64,000 bases of DNA. It comes from Shewanella pealeana ATCC 700345. GTDB taxonomy: Bacteria > Pseudomonadota > Gammaproteobacteria > Enterobacterales > Shewanellaceae. The notes under the pieces are model-generated. The model did not search any database. It was not told the DNA's origin and was given only the letters and a program-made list of their open reading frames with translations. The stretch covers positions 4,029,001 to 4,093,000 of the forward strand of contig NC_009901.1 in the NCBI RefSeq assembly GCF_000018285.1, given 5' to 3'. Every line of letters begins with the position of its first letter. Position 1 is the first letter of the stretch. This document shows, piece after piece, positions 7,264 through 18,254 of the stretch. The position numbers were made by a program, and so were the translations under genes.

Positions 7264-7321
7264 ACTAAAGTTATTCATCTATACTCATTAACAAAGTGAA
7301 CATTGCAAAAGGAACTTGCAC

Positions 7322-8014
7322 ATGTCTAGAAAACCTAGAGCCAATCCGATAGGCATACCTCAACATGTCATTCAACGCGGTAATAACCGCCAAGCATGTT
7401 TTGCTGCAGAACAAGACTTTATTGCCTATGCCGGATGGTTAAAGGACTATGCCAAGAAATTTCAGGTTGAAATCCATGCCTGGGTATTTATGACAAACCA
7501 TGTTCACCTACTTTGCACACCGCAAGAAACCAATGCGATTAGCCAAATGATGCAGTCTCTTGGGCGACAGTATGTGAGGTATTTTAATTACACTTATAAA
7601 CGCTCTGGAACACTATGGGAGGGACGATATAAGTCTTGCCTAGTACAGACTGAAGACTATCTACTACAACTATATCACTATATAGAGCTCAATCCAGTTA
7701 GAGCAAATATGGTCGATGCCCCTTCTGAATATCAATGGTCCAGTTACCAAATCAACGCCTTAGGCAAAGCCTCCACATTATGTACGCCTCACCCTGCTTA
7801 CCTCGCTATTCATCCTACAGAAAAAGCCCGACAAGCATGTTATCGAGCACTCTTTAAACACCAGTTAGACACACAAATCATTGAAGATATTCGACAAGCA
7901 ACCCACAAAGGCATGGCTATCGGAAATAATAAATTTAAAGATGATATTGAGAAACTAACAAACACAAACACGAGACCGCAGAAAATGGGGCGGCCAACAA
8001 AGCCAATAGCATAA
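7322..8014 (+). CDS. REP-associated tyrosine transposase (Y1/HUH family)
   Basis: A 230-aa single-strand transposase of the TnpA-REP type. The N-terminus has GIPQHVIQRGNNRQACF, the HUH metal motif is TNHVHLL, and the catalytic Tyr region is YHYIELNPVRANMV. A basic C-terminus (GRPTKP) follows. The frame could start at TTG 7316, but ATG 7322 sits eight bases behind AAAGGAA. It looks intact. Such genes are usually single-copy, domesticated-like enzymes acting on REP palindromes; a matching REP half-site lies just behind it. It forms the left edge of the AT-rich NACHT block. Confidence 0.88.
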   Translation: MSRKPRANPIGIPQHVIQRGNNRQACFAAEQDFIAYAGWLKDYAKKFQVEIHAWVFMTNHVHLLCTPQETNAISQMMQSLGRQYVRYFNYTYKRSGTLWEGRYKSCLVQTEDYLLQLYHYIELNPVRANMVDAPSEYQWSSYQINALGKASTLCTPHPAYLAIHPTEKARQACYRALFKHQLDTQIIEDIRQATHKGMAIGNNKFKDDIEKLTNTNTRPQKMGRPTKPIA

Positions 8015-8280: not shown

Positions 8281-9000
8281 TTAGTTATTATTGCGCTCAA
8301 TTTTGATTTTTTGCCCATAATCAAAAATATCTACACGATCAGAGATAGTTTTCCAAACTGATGTATACCCCCAAAGACACAATGAAATAAATAACATAAC
8401 AACAGTTAGGCTGTTTTTATTTTTGCAAGTAAACTCACCAAGCCAACCCTCACTAGGGTTTAAAGATAGAAACCTCCTCATATTTAAAGCTAGAATAATC
8501 ATTACTGTAGGAAAAACCAATAACCAAACAAATTGTAGATCAGCATTTTTAACTAAGAAATAACTCACCCCATAAAAGACACCTGCTGTAAAAACAAAAA
8601 ACATTGGTAATCCAGAAATGAAGAAATCTTTAAAAGGCTTTATCCAAGGAAGCAATTTAACTAATTTATCATGTACATCATCATCAAGTTTCAATAGTTG
8701 AAACCTTAATGCCATATACATAAACAAAGGAATACTTAACTCACAAACTTTACCAATCCACCAAGACTGTATTGATATAATCGACTTTAACTCTTCATCC
8801 ATCTCATTGTAAGCATAAAGTATATCAGTATCAATAACCCAACCAGACACAAAATATGAAACAAAAGAAAAAACAATGCAAAAAATTATAGCCAGCATGT
8901 AGAATTTTACCGTTCCAACCTTAGAAAGCATATTACATAACTCACCCAACCTATTATCAATTTCTTTATTACGCACACTATACCCCCTAGTTAAAAACAT
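8281..9000 (-). CDS. Membrane protein of unknown function, third gene of NACHT operon
   Basis: A 239-aa integral membrane protein with about five predicted transmembrane helices: around residues 33-58, 85-103, 126-150, 156-174 and 198-218. A hydrophilic loop with LLKLDDDVHDKLVKLL separates helices 2 and 3, and the tail is basic. The ATG at 9000 is preferred over a TTG at 9006. It starts about 30 bp after the preceding gene on the same strand and is very AT-rich. I recognise no family. Placed behind a NACHT NTPase and another membrane protein, it may be an effector that permeabilises or signals at the inner membrane; this is inference from context. Confidence 0.6.
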   Translation of the reverse strand: MFLTRGYSVRNKEIDNRLGELCNMLSKVGTVKFYMLAIIFCIVFSFVSYFVSGWVIDTDILYAYNEMDEELKSIISIQSWWIGKVCELSIPLFMYMALRFQLLKLDDDVHDKLVKLLPWIKPFKDFFISGLPMFFVFTAGVFYGVSYFLVKNADLQFVWLLVFPTVMIILALNMRRFLSLNPSEGWLGEFTCKNKNSLTVVMLFISLCLWGYTSVWKTISDRVDIFDYGQKIKIERNNN

Positions 9001-9029
9001 TAACAACCATCTCTAAAACTTATTCACAC

Positions 9030-9647
9030 TCATACCTCGCAAATAAATAGTTTCAGTGCATAAAAAACATTTACAATGGCACTCACGAATAAAAAAGACA
9101 AACCAAGAAAGTAAAAGATAAAACAAAAAACTGCTGAGATACGGAACTGACAATTAAGCTTATTATAAGTTTTCCAAAAAAAGTCAGCTCTAAGTTCAGA
9201 ATCAATAAAAACTGACTCAACCTCCCTCTTCCGATTTAAAATACCAACCACCGCTTTACAATCTACATCCTTAGTCTTATCAAAGTCTTTTACAAAATTA
9301 AAGATATCATCACAAGAAACTTTAGACCCTATTTTTGATGAAGATAACTGAAGGTAGTCAATAATGTGCTGCATAGTTTTCCCTTCGCTTTCAAAATCGC
9401 TCAAACTTGAGTTCTGCTTAATCATCAAAGGACACCTAACCTGATAAATAAGAGTGCCAATAGCAAAACACAAAGATGCATAAAAAAACTTAGAGACACT
9501 AAAAGGAATAAATAAATCCACACCTGAAAAAGTTGAAAAGCGCTCAAAATTAATAGTCAAAAACGGGATTAAAAATATCCAAAAGTAATTACTTGTAATC
9601 AACTTACTATTACCTAAAACCCGCAAATCACTCCAAAGAATACTCAT
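9030..9647 (-). CDS. Membrane protein of unknown function, second gene of NACHT operon
   Basis: A 205-aa protein with two N-terminal membrane helices (around residues 20-36 and 53-70), a soluble segment of about 95 residues (70-165), and a C-terminal hydrophobic stretch long enough for one or two helices (168-201). Its ATG overlaps the stop of the NACHT gene as ATGA, so the two are translationally coupled. No family recognised. The arrangement of a cytosolic middle domain between membrane hairpins suggests a membrane partner of the NTPase. Codon use is AT-rich like its neighbours and unlike the core genes after 13 kb. Confidence 0.6.
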   Translation of the reverse strand: MSILWSDLRVLGNSKLITSNYFWIFLIPFLTINFERFSTFSGVDLFIPFSVSKFFYASLCFAIGTLIYQVRCPLMIKQNSSLSDFESEGKTMQHIIDYLQLSSSKIGSKVSCDDIFNFVKDFDKTKDVDCKAVVGILNRKREVESVFIDSELRADFFWKTYNKLNCQFRISAVFCFIFYFLGLSFLFVSAIVNVFYALKLFICEV

Positions 9648-11521
9648 ACCTCAAACTTCCCCTTTTTACTTTCTTCCTCTTTCCTTCTATTAAGTTCATA
9701 ATACTTCATATACTTTGCCTTCATATTATCTAAAGGCAGTTTATTCAACTCATCTTTAAACCATTGATTCAACTTCAACTCATTTAACACTTCGAAGAGG
9801 TTAATAACCCTTACTTTGTGCTCTTCTATGTCAGACGCAACACCAATTTTTGATAACTGAGTAAAATTATCATCTTGTCTACACCCACTTACTTTCCTGT
9901 AAACCCTATCAATAAAACTATCTAGATTAACTTTCTCTGTGGTTCCGTTAGAATGACCTGGGTTCCAAAAGTGTTTATCCACTAGGAAGTTTGTTGACAC
10001 ATTAAACATTAAAACATCTTTATACTTATCCTCTGCCGTCATTTCCTTTGAGCTTCCAATAAATATAATAAAATAAAAATTTCTCGAAAACATATCAGCA
10101 CCTTCACTAGTAAACGACAACTTCCTAGGAAGTAGTGATGGCTCAAAAAACAACTCTACTTCAGGTAAATAAAGATTTCTTACAAATCGTCTAGTGTCAA
10201 TATCTGCTAAAAATTGCAATACATTTAACCACTGTCGCCACTTACGGCGACTAGAACCATAAAAACTTATCGCATCTAAATCATCAGTTTGCTCTTTAAT
10301 ACAAGATGCAGCGAAGTAATGTGGTATCATTTCATGTAAAAATCGATAATCATGATCATCGATTTGCAGTAAACACGTATTCCTAGTTATATCATCTAAT
10401 AAATTGCTTGCTTGAGTTACTTTCTCTCCCATATCTAAAAGAACATTTTTTATTACCCGAATGAAGTCGTCCTTACTTCCCGATAATTCAGATGATTTAA
10501 TAGAATAATATGACAACAATTCCAATGCAGTTTTGATTTTATCTGCACTGAACAATGTTTTTGTTGGCCTTGTAAAACCCAATTTTAAACCATCATGTTC
10601 AGACACCAAAGTATCAAACAGTTTTTTATAAAAGTCTGAGTGGTCTTCCGGAATTTTTACTTTATTTCGATATACCATTGAAAACAATGTAAGCATAAGA
10701 GGTGTTTTCAAAAGCTCTCTTAGTTTTTTAGGTAAACTATCAATGTTTCGCTGCAAATTCTCTTTTTGAACGATAGACTTTTCTGTCGCCATTAATTTTT
10801 TTACAAAACCAATCTGCTCATCGTTATCAAGGGGTTTAATACTAAAAATAATAAAGCTAGATGAACGTTGTATCTCATTGCCAGGCCGAGTTGTAACAAA
10901 TATTTTTTTGTTTGAACTTCTCGAAGCTACATATTGAATAAACTCTACAACATTCTGCCTAATATCATATTCAACCTCATCAAAGCCATCAAAGAAGAAT
11001 GAAAACAAACCAATTTTCAACAACGATTCAAACAGTTTTTCAGAACACCTAAAACCAAGGTTTTTCTCTATGTATTCTGAAAAAAACTCAGATATAGGTT
11101 GCTCAACATTTACATCTTTTAGCTCTATAAATAATGGAATTGTTGCTGCCGAATTCAACTCATAATTATGTAAATGCCTTAAAAGTATTGACTTACCATG
11201 ACCAACAAGGCCTTCGATTATGATTGATTCATCACAATTAAAATCAGCATATGTATCAGCTTTGATATTAACCTTTTTAGGGCTACGCTTTTCAATCAAT
11301 TGACAAGGAAAGTAAAACTCTTTTACTTTTTTAGGTTCTTCTTTCCTGAAAATCGTTACTACAAACTCAACCTTTCTCAACTCCTCAACTGCGAACTTTA
11401 CCTTTTCAGGATCAACCCAAGAGCTGAACTCTGCTTGATTCCGTCCAGATAGACAACCCTTCTTTTCTTCAAGCATCTTAAGGTGTGATGTATAAGGTCT
11501 TGCACGTACATTTTTAGGCAT
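9644..11521 (-). CDS. NACHT-domain NTPase (bacterial NLR-like)
   Basis: A 625-aa STAND NTPase. Walker A is GLVGHGKS at residues 104-111, Walker B is FFFDGFDEV at about 175-183 with the paired acidic residues typical of NACHT, and a TTRPG sensor sits at 210-214. The NACHT core is followed by winged-helix-like sequence (LKTPLMLTLFSMVYRN, then FLHEMIPHYFAA near 400), then about 220 residues without visible LRR, TPR or WD repeats. The first ~95 residues contain no recognised nuclease or protease. Bacterial NACHT proteins are known antiphage sensors. The gene is first in a three-gene operon with two membrane proteins, so the effector is probably membrane-acting and encoded in trans. Phage defence is inferred, not shown. 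Confidence 0.8.
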   Translation of the reverse strand: MPKNVRARPYTSHLKMLEEKKGCLSGRNQAEFSSWVDPEKVKFAVEELRKVEFVVTIFRKEEPKKVKEFYFPCQLIEKRSPKKVNIKADTYADFNCDESIIIEGLVGHGKSILLRHLHNYELNSAATIPLFIELKDVNVEQPISEFFSEYIEKNLGFRCSEKLFESLLKIGLFSFFFDGFDEVEYDIRQNVVEFIQYVASRSSNKKIFVTTRPGNEIQRSSSFIIFSIKPLDNDEQIGFVKKLMATEKSIVQKENLQRNIDSLPKKLRELLKTPLMLTLFSMVYRNKVKIPEDHSDFYKKLFDTLVSEHDGLKLGFTRPTKTLFSADKIKTALELLSYYSIKSSELSGSKDDFIRVIKNVLLDMGEKVTQASNLLDDITRNTCLLQIDDHDYRFLHEMIPHYFAASCIKEQTDDLDAISFYGSSRRKWRQWLNVLQFLADIDTRRFVRNLYLPEVELFFEPSLLPRKLSFTSEGADMFSRNFYFIIFIGSSKEMTAEDKYKDVLMFNVSTNFLVDKHFWNPGHSNGTTEKVNLDSFIDRVYRKVSGCRQDDNFTQLSKIGVASDIEEHKVRVINLFEVLNELKLNQWFKDELNKLPLDNMKAKYMKYYELNRRKEEESKKGKFEV

Positions 11522-11670
11522 ATTTTAAACCAGTAAATATCAAATGATAACGATTAAAGTCTAGATACACTCTCCTACAAAACTTCGTAAAACCATACGA
11601 GTCGCTATTGCAGTTATATCGTTAATTCCCTCAGTAATTTCGCAATAGTAACATATTGTTAAGAAACAAC

Positions 11671-11772
11671 AAAAAGACAGGACAACAACAAAAAGACAGG
11701 ACAGCCATATCTTTTGTGCTTTCACAAGAAAAGACAGGAAAAAGACAGGACAGCCATATCTTTTGTGCTTTA
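11671..11772. repeat. AAAGACAGG repeats in the leader of the second transposase
   Basis: AAAGACAGG or a close variant recurs about five times. The unit AAGACAGGACAGCCATATC followed by TTTTGTGCTTT occurs twice, at about 11692-11722 and 11742-11772. This block lies just upstream of the Y1 transposase gene. Such leader repeats commonly accompany this transposase type in Shewanella, to my knowledge. The remaining 11522-11670 contains the NACHT operon promoter region, with no confident hexamers. Confidence 0.65.
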
Positions 11773-11830: not shown

Positions 11831-12472
11831 ATGACCTCTGCTCGACGAACTTTGATAGATCCAGAATCGACTCCTTTCTATCACATCATAAATCGTTGTG
11901 TCAGAAGAGCATTTCTCTGTGGCGAGGATAAGCTTACAGGTAAAAGCTTTGAACATAGGCGTGGCTGGATTGTCGATAAAATCAAAGCGCTTTCAACTGT
12001 CTTCTGTATCGATATTTGTGCCTATGCTGTCATGAATAATCACTATCATTTAGTCCTTAAAATCGACACTGACAAAGCTAAATCATTGAGTAACAAAGAG
12101 GTCATTAGTCGATGGTGTAAAATCACTAAAGGGCATGCTGTAGCAACCAAATACATGAATGGCGAGACATTAATTGAGGGTGAGCGTTTACTACTTGATG
12201 GATTATTAGCTGAGTGGCACGAGCGTTTATCGAGTATATCCTGGTTTATGCGTTGTCTTAATGAGGAGGTAGCGCGTAGGGCGAATCGTGAAGATGAGTG
12301 TAAGGGGGCATTCTGGGAAGGAAGGTTTAAGTCTCAAGCCCTACTCGATGAACAGGCATTACTTGCATGTATGATGTACGTGGATTTAAACCCTATCAGA
12401 GCCGGAATAGCAGACACTCTTCAAACCTCTGAGTTCACATCTATTCAAGAGCGTATTACCGAGCTACTCTAA
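11831..12472 (+). pseudogene. REP-associated Y1 transposase, C-terminally truncated
   Basis: A 213-aa frame with the N-terminal catalytic part of the larger Y1 transposase family: YHIINRCVRRAFLCG, the HUH motif NNHYHLVL, SSISWFMRCLNEEVARRAN, FWEGRFKSQALLDEQALL and MYVDLNPIRAGIA. Family members of this type usually run to about 310-330 residues; this one stops after FTSIQERITELL, losing the C-terminal third. The stop lies at the junction with the convergent gene at 12469, so truncation by an old rearrangement is likely. AGGA lies eight bases before the ATG. The catalytic residues remain, so residual activity cannot be excluded. Confidence 0.7.
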
Positions 12473-12918
12473 ACCAAACCCAACAACCTGTGCCCTCTTG
12501 CCACAGACTTAGCAATCTCATTAGCTACCGCTATCAATCTAGCCTTAATCGCTTGCTCTATCCCAACACCAGCCTCAAGCAAGTCAGCAACTGCAATAAA
12601 AGCCGTGGTCTTTAAGCTAGTGCTGTCATAACAATAGGCATAACCATCACCCGAGATCCACTCTTTTCCCGCCGCAGCGCTCCCACTCTTTTCACTAACA
12701 GCCACAGCACCCGCTTGCAGCCCTTTATCTTCCAAGCTTCTAACCAAGGTAAAATCGAAAGCCAAGATACAGGTTTCATCGCCATACCAATCCGCTTTCA
12801 ACGCCTGAAAGTTGATCCACATTTCCAGCTCAATCAATAACGGTTTAAGCGAACTAGAAAAGCCGCTATCGGCACTAATCGTAATAGGAAGTTGTTCTTG
12901 CATATCAATTTGTGTCAT
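12469..12918 (-). CDS. Hypothetical protein
   Basis: A 149-aa soluble protein with no signal peptide. Features include a Trp-containing segment (MWINFQALKADWYGDE), KEWISGDGYAYCYDS, and a C-terminal helix rich in Ala (IEQAIKARLIAVANEIAKSVARG). I recognise no family. It is convergent with, and overlaps by four bases, the truncated transposase, and is separated from gcvP by the gcv terminator. It marks the boundary between accessory and core DNA. A second Met at residue 6 could be the start. Confidence 0.5.
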   Translation of the reverse strand: MTQIDMQEQLPITISADSGFSSSLKPLLIELEMWINFQALKADWYGDETCILAFDFTLVRSLEDKGLQAGAVAVSEKSGSAAAGKEWISGDGYAYCYDSTSLKTTAFIAVADLLEAGVGIEQAIKARLIAVANEIAKSVARGHRLLGLV

Positions 12919-13035
12919 CGGTATTTGTCGTCACTTTGCTATGGTTTAAATCAAGTGGTTTAAAGCTGATTCTGCTGGCTAATGCCATTAGTTGCAACAG
13001 CCCACTATCAAATCTGCCTTTAAAATTCACCCAAT

Positions 13036-13063
13036 AAAAAACGCACCACTAAGGGTGCGTTTT
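13036..13063 (-). terminator. gcv operon terminator
   Basis: AAACGCACC / GGTGCGTTT stem with a 6-nt loop. On the minus strand the stem is followed by a run of T. It lies 131 bp past the gcvP stop. The sequence between (13064-13193) includes another imperfect inverted repeat around GTTTTCGC / GCGAAAAT. Confidence 0.7.
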
Positions 13064-13193
13064 ACGTAATGGCGTTACTGCCGATGATAAGACAAAGAAG
13101 CCGATGGTTTTCGCCGCGGAGTTGACTCCAGTCAATGAGCAGCGAAAATCTGAGGCTGAAGCCGTATTATCAAGGCTAAGTAGCCATTATAAA

Positions 13194-16082
13194 TTATTCG
13201 TAGTCAGAGACAGGGGCGCATGAACACATCAAGTTACGGTCGCCGTAAACATCATCAATACGGTTAACCGTTGGCCAGAACTTATTCGCCTTAACCGCAT
13301 TAGTTGGGAACACCGCTTCTTCACGACTGTAAGGACGTGAATCAAACGCTGGGTCCATGATGTCAGCTAGGGTGTGCGGCGCGTTGTGCAGTGGGTTGTT
13401 GTCCACTGGCCACTCGCCTGCTTCTACCTTGGCGATTTCGCCGCGGATAGACACCATAGCCTCGATGAATCTGTCTAGCTCAACCTTAGACTCAGACTCC
13501 GTTGGCTCAATCATTAAGGTGCCCGCAACAGGGAAGCTCATGGTTGGTGCGTGGAAACCATAGTCGTTTAGACGCTTAGCGATATCCATCTCGGTCACGC
13601 CTGAGGCTTCTTTAAGCGGACGTAAGTCGATGATGCACTCGTGCGCAACACGGTCATTACGGCCTGTGTATAGCACTGGATAATGTGCAGAAAGCTTCTT
13701 CATCACGTAGTTAGCGTTAAGCAGTGCTACTTGAGTTGACTGACGTAGACCTTTTTTACCTAGCAGCTTGATGTACATCCAAGTGATAGGCAGGATCCCT
13801 GCGCTACCAAATGGCGCTGCAGATACTGCACCGTTATTGTCAGACTCTAGACCGTGCTTAACCACACTGTGGCCAGATAGGAATGGCGCAAGGTGCTTTT
13901 TAACACCGATTGGGCCCATACCTGGTCCACCGCCGCCATGTGGAATAGCGAAGGTTTTGTGTAGGTTAAGGTGCGATACGTCTGCGCCGATAAAGCCTGG
14001 TGATGTTAGGCCAACCTGTGCGTTCATATTGGCGCCGTCTAGGTAAACCTGACCGCCATGCTGGTGAATAACTTCACAGATCTCACCGATGGTTTCTTCA
14101 TACACACCGTGAGTCGATGGGTAAGTGACCATGATGCAAGACAGGTTATCAGCCACTTCCGCCGCCTTGGCTTTTAGGTCTGCCATGTCGATGTTACCGG
14201 CTTTATCACACGCGGTAACCACAATTTTCATGCCTGCAAGCTGCGCCGATGCTGGGTTAGTACCGTGCGCAGATTGTGGAATTAGACAGATGTTTCTGTG
14301 CGCATCACCACGTGACTCATGATATTGCTTAATCGCAAGCAGACCTGCGTATTCGCCCTGTGCGCCTGAGTTAGGTTGAAGCGATACGGCGTCGTAACCT
14401 GTGATATCCACAAGCCATGTTGATAGCTCCTCAAGCAGCTGCGCGTAACCTTGCGCTTGGTCTTGTGGGCAGAATGGGTGCATATTGCCAAACTCTGGCC
14501 ATGTGATAGGCGCCATCTCGGTTGCCGCGTTAAGCTTCATGGTGCATGAGCCTAATGAGATCATTGAGTGGTTTAGCGCCAAATCTTTGTTCTCGAGACG
14601 CTTGATGTAACGCATCATCTCGGTTTCGCTCTGGTAGCGATTGAACGTTGGGTGAGTCAAGATAGCATCTTTACGCACAAGCTCGCTTGGAATTGAGCTG
14701 CTGCCGTTTGCAATAATGGCGGCATCAAGTGCTGCAGCATCTTGGCCGTGGCCTTCACCTAAAAGAACGTCAAATAGCTCAGCAACGTCGCTGCGAGTGG
14801 TGGTTTCAGACAAACTCACACCAATCACGCCATCGCTGTCGATGCGTAGGTTCAGGCCAGTAGCTAGAGCGCGCGCTTGTACAGCGGTAACGTCTAAGCC
14901 TTTAATCGATAGGGTGTCGAACCAAGTGTTGTTTACTAGCTCAACGCCTTTTGCTGTTAGTGCTGCAGCCACGATGTCGGTTAGACGGTGAATGCGCTCG
15001 GCAATGACTTTAAGACCCTGTGGGCCGTGGAATACCGCGTAGAACGATGCCATGTTGGCCAGCAGCACCTGTGCAGTACAGATGTTTGAGTTAGCTTTTT
15101 CGCGGCGGATATGCTGCTCACGAGTCTGCATTGCCATACGCAGTGCACGGTTACCGCGTGTATCTTGCGATACACCAATAATACGACCTGGTAGTGAGCG
15201 CTTGTACTCGTCACGAGTCACAAAGAAAGCAGCGTGTGGACCACCAAAGCCCATTGGCACACCAAAGCGCTGTGAGTTACCTAGTACCACATCGGCGCCC
15301 ATTGAACCCGGCGACTTAAGGACCACTAGCGACATGATGTCGGCTGCAACTGACACAAGTGCCTTTTTCTCATGTAGCTTGGCAAACAGTTCTGTGTGAT
15401 CGCAAATTTGACCTACACGGTTGGTGTACTGGAACAGGGCACCAAATAGCTCGTAGTTAACTGCTTCTTCTGCAGGACCTACGACAACCTCAAAACCAAA
15501 ACACTCGGCGCGAGTTTTAATTACGTCGATAGTTTGTGGGAATACGTCATCAGCTACGAAGAAGATGTTAGCTTTTTTAGCTTTAGAAACACGCTTAGAC
15601 AGTGCCATTGCTTCGGCAGCGGCTGTTGCTTCATCGAGTAGTGAAGATGAGGCAAGATCAAGACCTGTTAAGTCCATAGACACTTGCTGGAAGTTTAAGA
15701 TCGCTTCAAGACGGCCTTGAGCAATCTCTGGCTGGTATGGTGTGTACGCTGTGTACCAACCTGGATTTTCAAGCACGTTGCGCTGAATAACACTTGGTAC
15801 TTCAGTACCGTGGTAGCCCATACCGATATAGCTTTTGAAGACCTTATTTTTGTCTGCAATTTTGCGGATATAAGCTAAGCCTTCCGCTTCGCCACATGAA
15901 TCGCCAACCGCTAAGTCGCGGTTTAGCAAAATGGCACCTGGAACGATTTGTGCGGTTAAATCTTCTAATGATTCTGCACCGACAAAGTTAAGCATTTCTT
16001 GCTGTTGGTCTGCACCTGGGCCAATGTGGCGGCGTAGAAATAATTCGTGCTGCTCTAACTGCGTAAGGGTTTCTGTGGTCAT
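13194..16082 (-). CDS. gcvP: Glycine dehydrogenase (decarboxylating), P-protein
   Basis: A 962-aa PLP enzyme that decarboxylates glycine and passes the aminomethyl group to lipoylated GcvH. It is full length for the homodimeric single-chain type, beginning [14 protein letters not shown]. The PLP lysine is in [19 protein letters not shown] near residue 707. N-terminal half motifs ([28 protein letters not shown]) and C-terminal half motifs ([29 protein letters not shown]) are intact. It is last in gcvT-gcvH-gcvP, but a strong hairpin lies between gcvH and gcvP, so its expression may be set separately. Confidence 0.97.
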
Positions 16083-17159: not shown

Positions 17160-18254
17160 TTAGAAGGCTTGCTTACCATTGCGCACAAATGACGGAGCGA
17201 TAACTTTTACCGGTACACGCTTCTTACGCATCTCTACTTCAGCCACGTCACCAATGCTGCGCGGTACGCGAGCCATGGCAATTGAGTAACCCAGTGTAGG
17301 CGAGAATGTGCCGCTGGTAATGGTACCTTGCTGCTCAACGCCGTCGCTGTCGGTAAAGAACACTGACATGCCGTGACGGATAACGCCTTTAGCGTCCATG
17401 ATTAGGCCAACAAGTTTGTCTGTACCTTCTGCTTTAATCTTCTCTAGCGCTTGGCGACCGTTAAAGTCACGTTCCGCTGGCTCCCATGCCACAGTCCAGC
17501 CCATGTTGGCTGCAAGTGGGTTAACGCTTTCGTCCATATCTAGGCCGTAAAGGTTCATGCCCGCTTCGAGACGTAATGTGTCACGTGCACCTAGTCCACA
17601 AGGCTTAATACCCGCATCTAGGAAAGCTTGCCATAGTGCTTCGGCTTCATCATTTGGTACGATAACTTCGTAGCCAGTTTCACCAGTGTAGCCAGTGGTT
17701 GCGATAAACAGTGAGCCAGCTTGTACACCAAAGAATGGCTTCATGCCTTCGATTGCTGCGTTTTGCGCATCGTTAAATACGGTAGCCGCTTTTGCCTTAG
17801 CATTTGGGCCTTGAACGGCGATCATCGCCAGCTCTGGACGCTCGGTCACTTCGACGCTGAAGCCTTTAACTTGTTCGTTTATCCAAGCGAGGTCTTTTTC
17901 GCGTGTTGCTGAGTTAACAACAATACGGTACTCGGTATCTGATAGGTAATAAGTGATAAGGTCGTCGATAACGCCGCCATTGTGGTCAAGCATACCGCCG
18001 TAAAGTGCCTTACCAGGCACTTTAAGCTTAGCGACATCGTTGGCTAGCAGTTTGCGTAAAAAGGCACAAGCGTCATCACCAATCACGTCGACTACTGTCA
18101 TGTGTGAAACGTCGAACATACCAGCGTCTTGACGAACTGCGTGATGTTCTTCGATTTGTGAACCGTAGTTTAGTGGCATATCCCAACCATGGAAGTCTAC
18201 CATCTTGCCGTTCGATTCTAGGTGCTTGTTAAAAAGTACAGTTTTGTTAGCCAT
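17160..18254 (-). CDS. gcvT: Aminomethyltransferase, glycine cleavage T protein
   Basis: A 364-aa folate-dependent enzyme releasing ammonia from the H-bound intermediate and forming methylene-THF. Diagnostic segments are [20 protein letters not shown], the [12 protein letters not shown] near the folate pocket and [13 protein letters not shown]. The ribosome-binding site GAAGGGA is five bases before the ATG. First gene of the gcv cluster; no tandem glycine-aptamer signature is apparent upstream, so control is likely by a transcription factor. Confidence 0.97.

Follow-up and report, generated by a model that had tools for sequence, protein, structure and literature searches.

Among the bacterial NACHT (bNACHT) proteins, which are related to NLRs, the members of clade 14 (bNACHT02, bNACHT11 and bNACHT12) provide defence without a discernible effector domain and carry a short C-terminal (SNaCT) domain, as described in the accessible part of PMC12169576. 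Other described proteins are organized differently: DS-8 is a NACHT protein with a metallophosphatase domain (PMC13092281, accessible part), and the ATPases of the CARD-NLR systems, such as LypABC, form a clade distinct from bNACHT (PMC13236601, accessible part). The Shewanella pealeana locus analyzed here resembles clade 14, judged by description alone, in encoding a NACHT protein with no discernible effector, but it also encodes a membrane partner, which the accessible part of PMC12169576 does not mention for clade 14. With LypABC it shares an NLR-like ATPase and partner proteins encoded by separate genes, although the partners of LypABC are homologues of a peptidase and an endonuclease and not a protein with three transmembrane helices (PMC13236601, same part). 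We found no account of such a NACHT-membrane protein pair in the accessible parts of the open-licence PMC literature, the coverage of which is small.

The window, that is, the whole stretch of 64,000 nucleotides that was analyzed, corresponds to positions 4029001-4093000 of the S. pealeana genome (5.17 Mb, one contig). On its reverse strand, the gene of a 625-residue NACHT NTPase (9644..11521) is followed by that of a 205-residue membrane protein, TM1 (9030..9647), with the NACHT stop and the TM1 start overlapping in an ATGA (9644..9647). Next on this strand, 23-29 nt past TM1, comes the gene of a second, five-helix membrane protein, TM2 (8281..9006; reverse strand; 241 residues, or 239 from the ATG). 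The cluster is flanked on one side by a Y1_Tnp (IS200-like) transposase gene identified with Pfam (7316..8014, forward strand) and on the other by a second Y1_Tnp-like gene (11831..12472, forward strand), whose Pfam score of 20.9 falls just under the cut-off of 23. The sequence that separates the start of the NACHT gene from the transposase-like gene contains imperfect direct repeats at positions 11661-11771, of 38 nt in two copies and of 24 nt in three. Further on lies gcvP (13194..16082, reverse strand), which we identified by eye, with a GCV_T gene past it at 17160-18254.

The NACHT protein comprises an N-terminal helical region (residues 1-95), the NACHT module with the helical part that follows it (96-456) and a C-terminal region (457-625), with borders that we placed ourselves. 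The module with its Walker A and B motifs and the helical parts behind it identify the protein as a bNACHT. In a single BLASTP comparison it was 27% identical over residues 41-456 (E 4e-30) to WP_015632533.1 from a Klebsiella plasmid, a protein of 609 residues and thus similar in size, which we take to be bNACHT01. By this homology, we class the NACHT protein as probably bNACHT01-like; the label 'NLR_like_bNACHT01' is also carried by a related Vibrio phage gene. Its C-terminal part of ~165 residues was not aligned by BLASTP to that of WP_015632533.1, and the two loci differ in that the next gene listed behind WP_015632533.1, in a gene table that is incomplete there, is a DUF596 gene 371 nt on. 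A weak likeness to EruA was also found, the NACHT region scoring 31 bits with the NCBIfam model NF058535 against a cut-off of 1,000, which places the protein outside EruA; that model has 1,318 positions and the window protein is half as long. The protein search with the NACHT sequence scored the best 7,998 candidates, ranked by shared words.

Neither another Pfam domain above the cut-off nor a hydrophobic segment was found in the NACHT protein. Furthermore, residue 31 of its structural model aligns with residue 94 of NLRC4, so that a counterpart of the N-terminal CARD is presumably absent. The NACHT protein thus appears to lack a discernible effector domain in cis. The preliminary description had reported a NACHT-family NTPase without a fused effector, an ATGA-coupled membrane protein and a third membrane gene, all of which our analysis confirmed. 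It had also regarded effectors in cis as usual for bacterial NACHT proteins; their lack is, however, not unusual, given that those of clade 14 'lack readily discernible effector domains' (PMC12169576, accessible part).

TM1 contains three long hydrophobic helices, at residues 15-41, 49-71 and 169-204, and a helical middle domain (~72-165), which is predicted to be cytosolic by the positive-inside rule. Across five aligned TM1 sequences, W5, K15, the WIF motif at 23-25, P28, Y68, C72-P73, W158, G182 and N193 are invariant; N193, which is also kept in genome G932, is a polar residue within the third membrane helix. The window TM1 had no significant match among the Pfam, PADLOC, NCBIfam and PHROGs profiles, known membrane effector families included, and the TM1 relatives that we scanned were likewise without a match to known effector families. 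No match to its fold stood out among solved structures. In layout it resembles the CBASS 2TM and SAVED-TM effectors, small membrane effectors under a cytosolic sensor, although these are fused to a SAVED domain and TM1 matches none of their models.

We propose that the two genes constitute an NLR-like antiphage system in which the NACHT switch acts in trans via the three-helix TM1, a putative membrane effector; we give this reading about an even chance of being correct.

Seen from the NACHT side, TM1 lies directly behind the NACHT gene in all five loci of the NACHT group that could be read, with junctions of -4 to -1 nt, which departs from the single-gene layout of bNACHT01-like proteins. The junction is -4 nt in the window, in Enterovibrio calviensis (L002), in G932 (L141) and in G466 (L149), where the NACHT gene is decayed (5' end lost, TGA inside) and TM1 intact, and -1 nt in G083 (L150), where the NACHT gene contains a masked stretch. 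Four of these loci were first reached through NACHT searches, so five of five is not an unbiased count; G932 was reached through TM1, as was a protein of Vibrio jasicida. In V. jasicida, NACHT and TM1 lie on contigs of equal size (1,019,254), which suggests that they may adjoin. Between the TM1 of the window and those of G932, G083 and G466, identity is down to 20-26%, indicating that the pairing has been kept over a long divergence. At the E. calviensis locus, genes that we read by eye as those of an integrase and of a replication protein, of phage or satellite type, lie upstream and further downstream.

Outside this group, the NACHT genes of the family stand alone. The loci yielded 115 distinct NACHT open reading frames scoring at least 60 bits. 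Eight came from the five coupled loci, in part as truncated copies or fragments; the remaining 107 had no TM1 match downstream, nine of these saying little as they end within 110 nt of the sequence end and a few being pieces of broken genes. Some solo genes have a different gene close behind them, as in an archaeal MAG (L019, below). Identical copies had been dropped from this count, such as those of G390 and G468 relative to S. abyssi (L048) and S. saliphila (L061), which are equal in bits and length. Counted by genome, TM1 adjoins NACHT in two of nine NACHT-bearing genomes of the window's own family, in two of 14 of the family that contains Enterovibrio and in two of nine of the class sample. 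In an unrooted tree of 57 NACHT cores, from which the G466 fragment was excluded and for which solo rows were picked by hand from loci, five coupled rows and 16 rows with unread neighbours separated from 36 solo rows (branch 98/94, one change); the neighbouring gene was thus read for five of the 21 rows of the coupled group. For the NACHT proteins of this group, TM1 is a coupled partner.

Because bNACHT01-like proteins are also maintained as single genes that lack TM1, NACHT may act alone. The solo state of the wider family favours a different reading, in which TM1 is a membrane anchor or sensor that holds NACHT at the inner membrane, where envelope events of infection are detected, and NACHT has an effector activity of its own; the defence provided by bNACHT02, 11 and 12 points the same way (PMC12169576, accessible part). 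Against it stands the conservation of the two proteins. A sensor is usually the part that changes fast, yet in all six pairs among the window, V. jasicida, Enterovibrio and G932, TM1 was more conserved (24-45% identity) than the C-terminal part of NACHT (12-31%); the N-terminal part ranged from 18 to 42% and the NACHT core from 32 to 62%. The C-terminal tail thus appears sensor-like and fast-evolving and TM1 constrained, and we regard the anchor or sensor role as unlikely, if worth keeping in mind.

From the TM1 side, the pairing is looser. A TM1 profile of five sequences (A2) matched 3 of 152 genomes of the window's own family and 9 of 296 of the Enterovibrio-containing family, which we take to be Vibrionaceae. 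A NACHT gene adjoins TM1 in four of these 12 genomes, namely the window's own and G466 (two of three in the own family) and G905, taken as Enterovibrio, and G932 (two of nine in the other family). These four matches had E-values of 1e-42 or better, as against 1.7e-28 to 3.3e-4 for the weaker and more distant TM1 matches in the eight genomes without an adjoining NACHT. G083 also has NACHT directly before TM1; it came from the class search and lies outside the 12. With a broader profile (A3), 147 genomes of the class gave two matches, in the window's own genome and in G083, both of them A3 rows. Both profiles were built partly from loci that they find, the window's own, G466, G905 and G083 matching by construction and G932 being, like the V. 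jasicida protein, an independent find. On whether TM1 homologues occur mainly without a NACHT partner, the answer therefore depends on the side from which one counts: the pairing is firm from the NACHT side, and it is upheld by the group structure and by the two independent finds.

TM1-like genes without NACHT stand in several other settings. In G417, an OLD-like ATPase gene lies 495 bp further on, and in G1020, of the Vibrio family, the TM1-like gene (L142:9571-10188) is a lone integron cassette; the array that holds it has at least 17 attC-like repeats. A gene weakly similar to radical-SAM genes, scanned in L143 only, adjoins the TM1-like genes of G1056, G1090 and G986 (L143-L145) or follows ~1 kb on; the products of these TM1-like genes, from three genomes within a single family, begin with the same 30 residues, and the genes are apparently mobile. 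Finally, in G1075, G1101 and G991 (L146:8409-11381, L147 and L148) the TM1-like gene lies directly behind those of a 441-residue and a 346-residue protein. The 441-residue protein of L146 matches phrog_27609, and the L146 proteins had no match in Pfam, PADLOC or NCBIfam; this is possibly another system that uses a TM1-like part. Occurrence as a lone cassette or behind the 441-residue protein indicates that TM1 may have other roles. Tentatively, and with somewhat less than even confidence, we suggest that a NACHT protein without its own effector passes its signal in trans to a dedicated membrane protein of three helices that forms pores or depolarises, and that TM1-like proteins are a transferable membrane-effector module that also serves other sensors (L146-L148, Vibrio family) and travels as an integron cassette (L142).

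TM1 could instead restrain NACHT, as an immunity protein or off-switch, with infection freeing the NACHT protein. Toxin-immunity pairs, too, are typically coupled tightly in translation, and the G466 locus looks as if the toxic member had been lost first, a single copy that amounts to little evidence. A restrainer would nevertheless be expected to sit poorly with the 107 NACHT genes that have no adjoining TM1 and with TM1-like genes that occur alone or with other partners, and we consider this reading improbable.

The preliminary description had taken all three genes as a unit, a view that held for TM1, which recurs with NACHT, and not for TM2. The position of TM2 close behind TM1 would fit a three-gene system in which both membrane proteins are effectors; however, no TM2 match was found behind TM1 in L002, L141, L149 or L150, so that only NACHT and TM1 were seen to co-occur elsewhere. 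A search of 148 family genomes gave TM2 matches in two, G441 (26% identity) besides the window's own genome. The G441 relative had neither NACHT nor TM1 within 17.5 kb around it, its neighbours being variable genes. A protein search with TM2, which reaches only relatives with common short exact words, returned its own cluster only. Membership of TM2 in the system is unsupported, a three-gene system is very improbable, and we treat TM2 as a passenger of the two-gene system proposed above.

The cluster lies in the 3' flank of gcvP, which we compared with the flanks from 16 of 17 other Shewanella genomes, two of them shorter than 1.5 kb and one of 4.4 kb owing to contig ends. The content of this flank varies from genome to genome (window 12000-13194; L163-L178). 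Thirteen proteins from seven of the 16 flanks, picked by eye, a choice that favours matches, were tested with PADLOC, and six of the seven flanks gave a match at E 1e-5 or better: a CBASS cyclase with E1-E2 and a 2TM-SAVED effector (L175), which places an effector of the kind likened to TM1 above at the same flank, LmuB of Lamassu (L176), a TIR gene (L168), PDC-S31 (L163), PDC-M36A (L173) and a short and weak PDC-M28B (L167). The proteins tested from L164 gave no PADLOC match. In the same region of the window, a PDDEXK_4 nuclease-family gene (1123-2469) gave a match (E 1.1e-20) to PDC-S26, a candidate defence family. On these gene contents, the gcvP 3' flank appears to be a variable defence hotspot in Shewanella. 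The decayed NACHT-TM1 pair of G466 occupies the same site, gcvP being matched by eye, in the opposite orientation relative to gcvP; together with the TM1 identity of only 20%, this speaks for separate arrivals of the two pairs.

Of the 152 family genomes, nine carry NACHT and three carry TM1. With this patchy distribution and the defence setting, the pair is not a housekeeping set, and the phage-defence setting proposed earlier gained support, the part of TM1 as a membrane effector in trans staying putative. STAND NTPases have other roles too, and the pair might serve stress responses or signalling rather than act against phages; the patchy spread, the hotspot, the occurrence of NACHT relatives on phages and plasmids and the homology to WP_015632533.1 all count against such a function, which we hold to be hardly probable.

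In the proposed two-gene system, the NACHT protein would be both sensor and switch. Its C-terminal region would recognize a molecule produced by the phage, and binding of ATP to the NACHT module would cause the protein to oligomerise, as NLRC4 and other NLRs do. In this state it would contact the TM1 middle domain, anchored by the three membrane helices, and TM1, clustered or opened, would breach the inner membrane, so that the infected cell would halt before phage release. In animal NLRs, sensing and membrane rupture are likewise split between proteins, and a division between a NACHT sensor and the TM1 membrane protein would parallel this. A NACHT group with a steady membrane-protein neighbour makes the action of effectorless bNACHT proteins testable and, if the reading is true, would give a direct clue to how they stop phage.

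We did not find the NACHT-TM1 pair in plasmids, phages or viral contigs; NACHT relatives without it are present on phages and plasmids. A bNACHT01-like gene (L107:12520-14310) lies near the end of a Vibrio phage record of 14.8 kb that also contains a capsid gene of PM2 type, and a 94% relative of it is found in genome G792 (L096). Finally, in an archaeal MAG, a NACHT relative (L019:7633-9441) is followed 10 nt on by a 284-residue protein with four hydrophobic segments, a layout that may be convergent.
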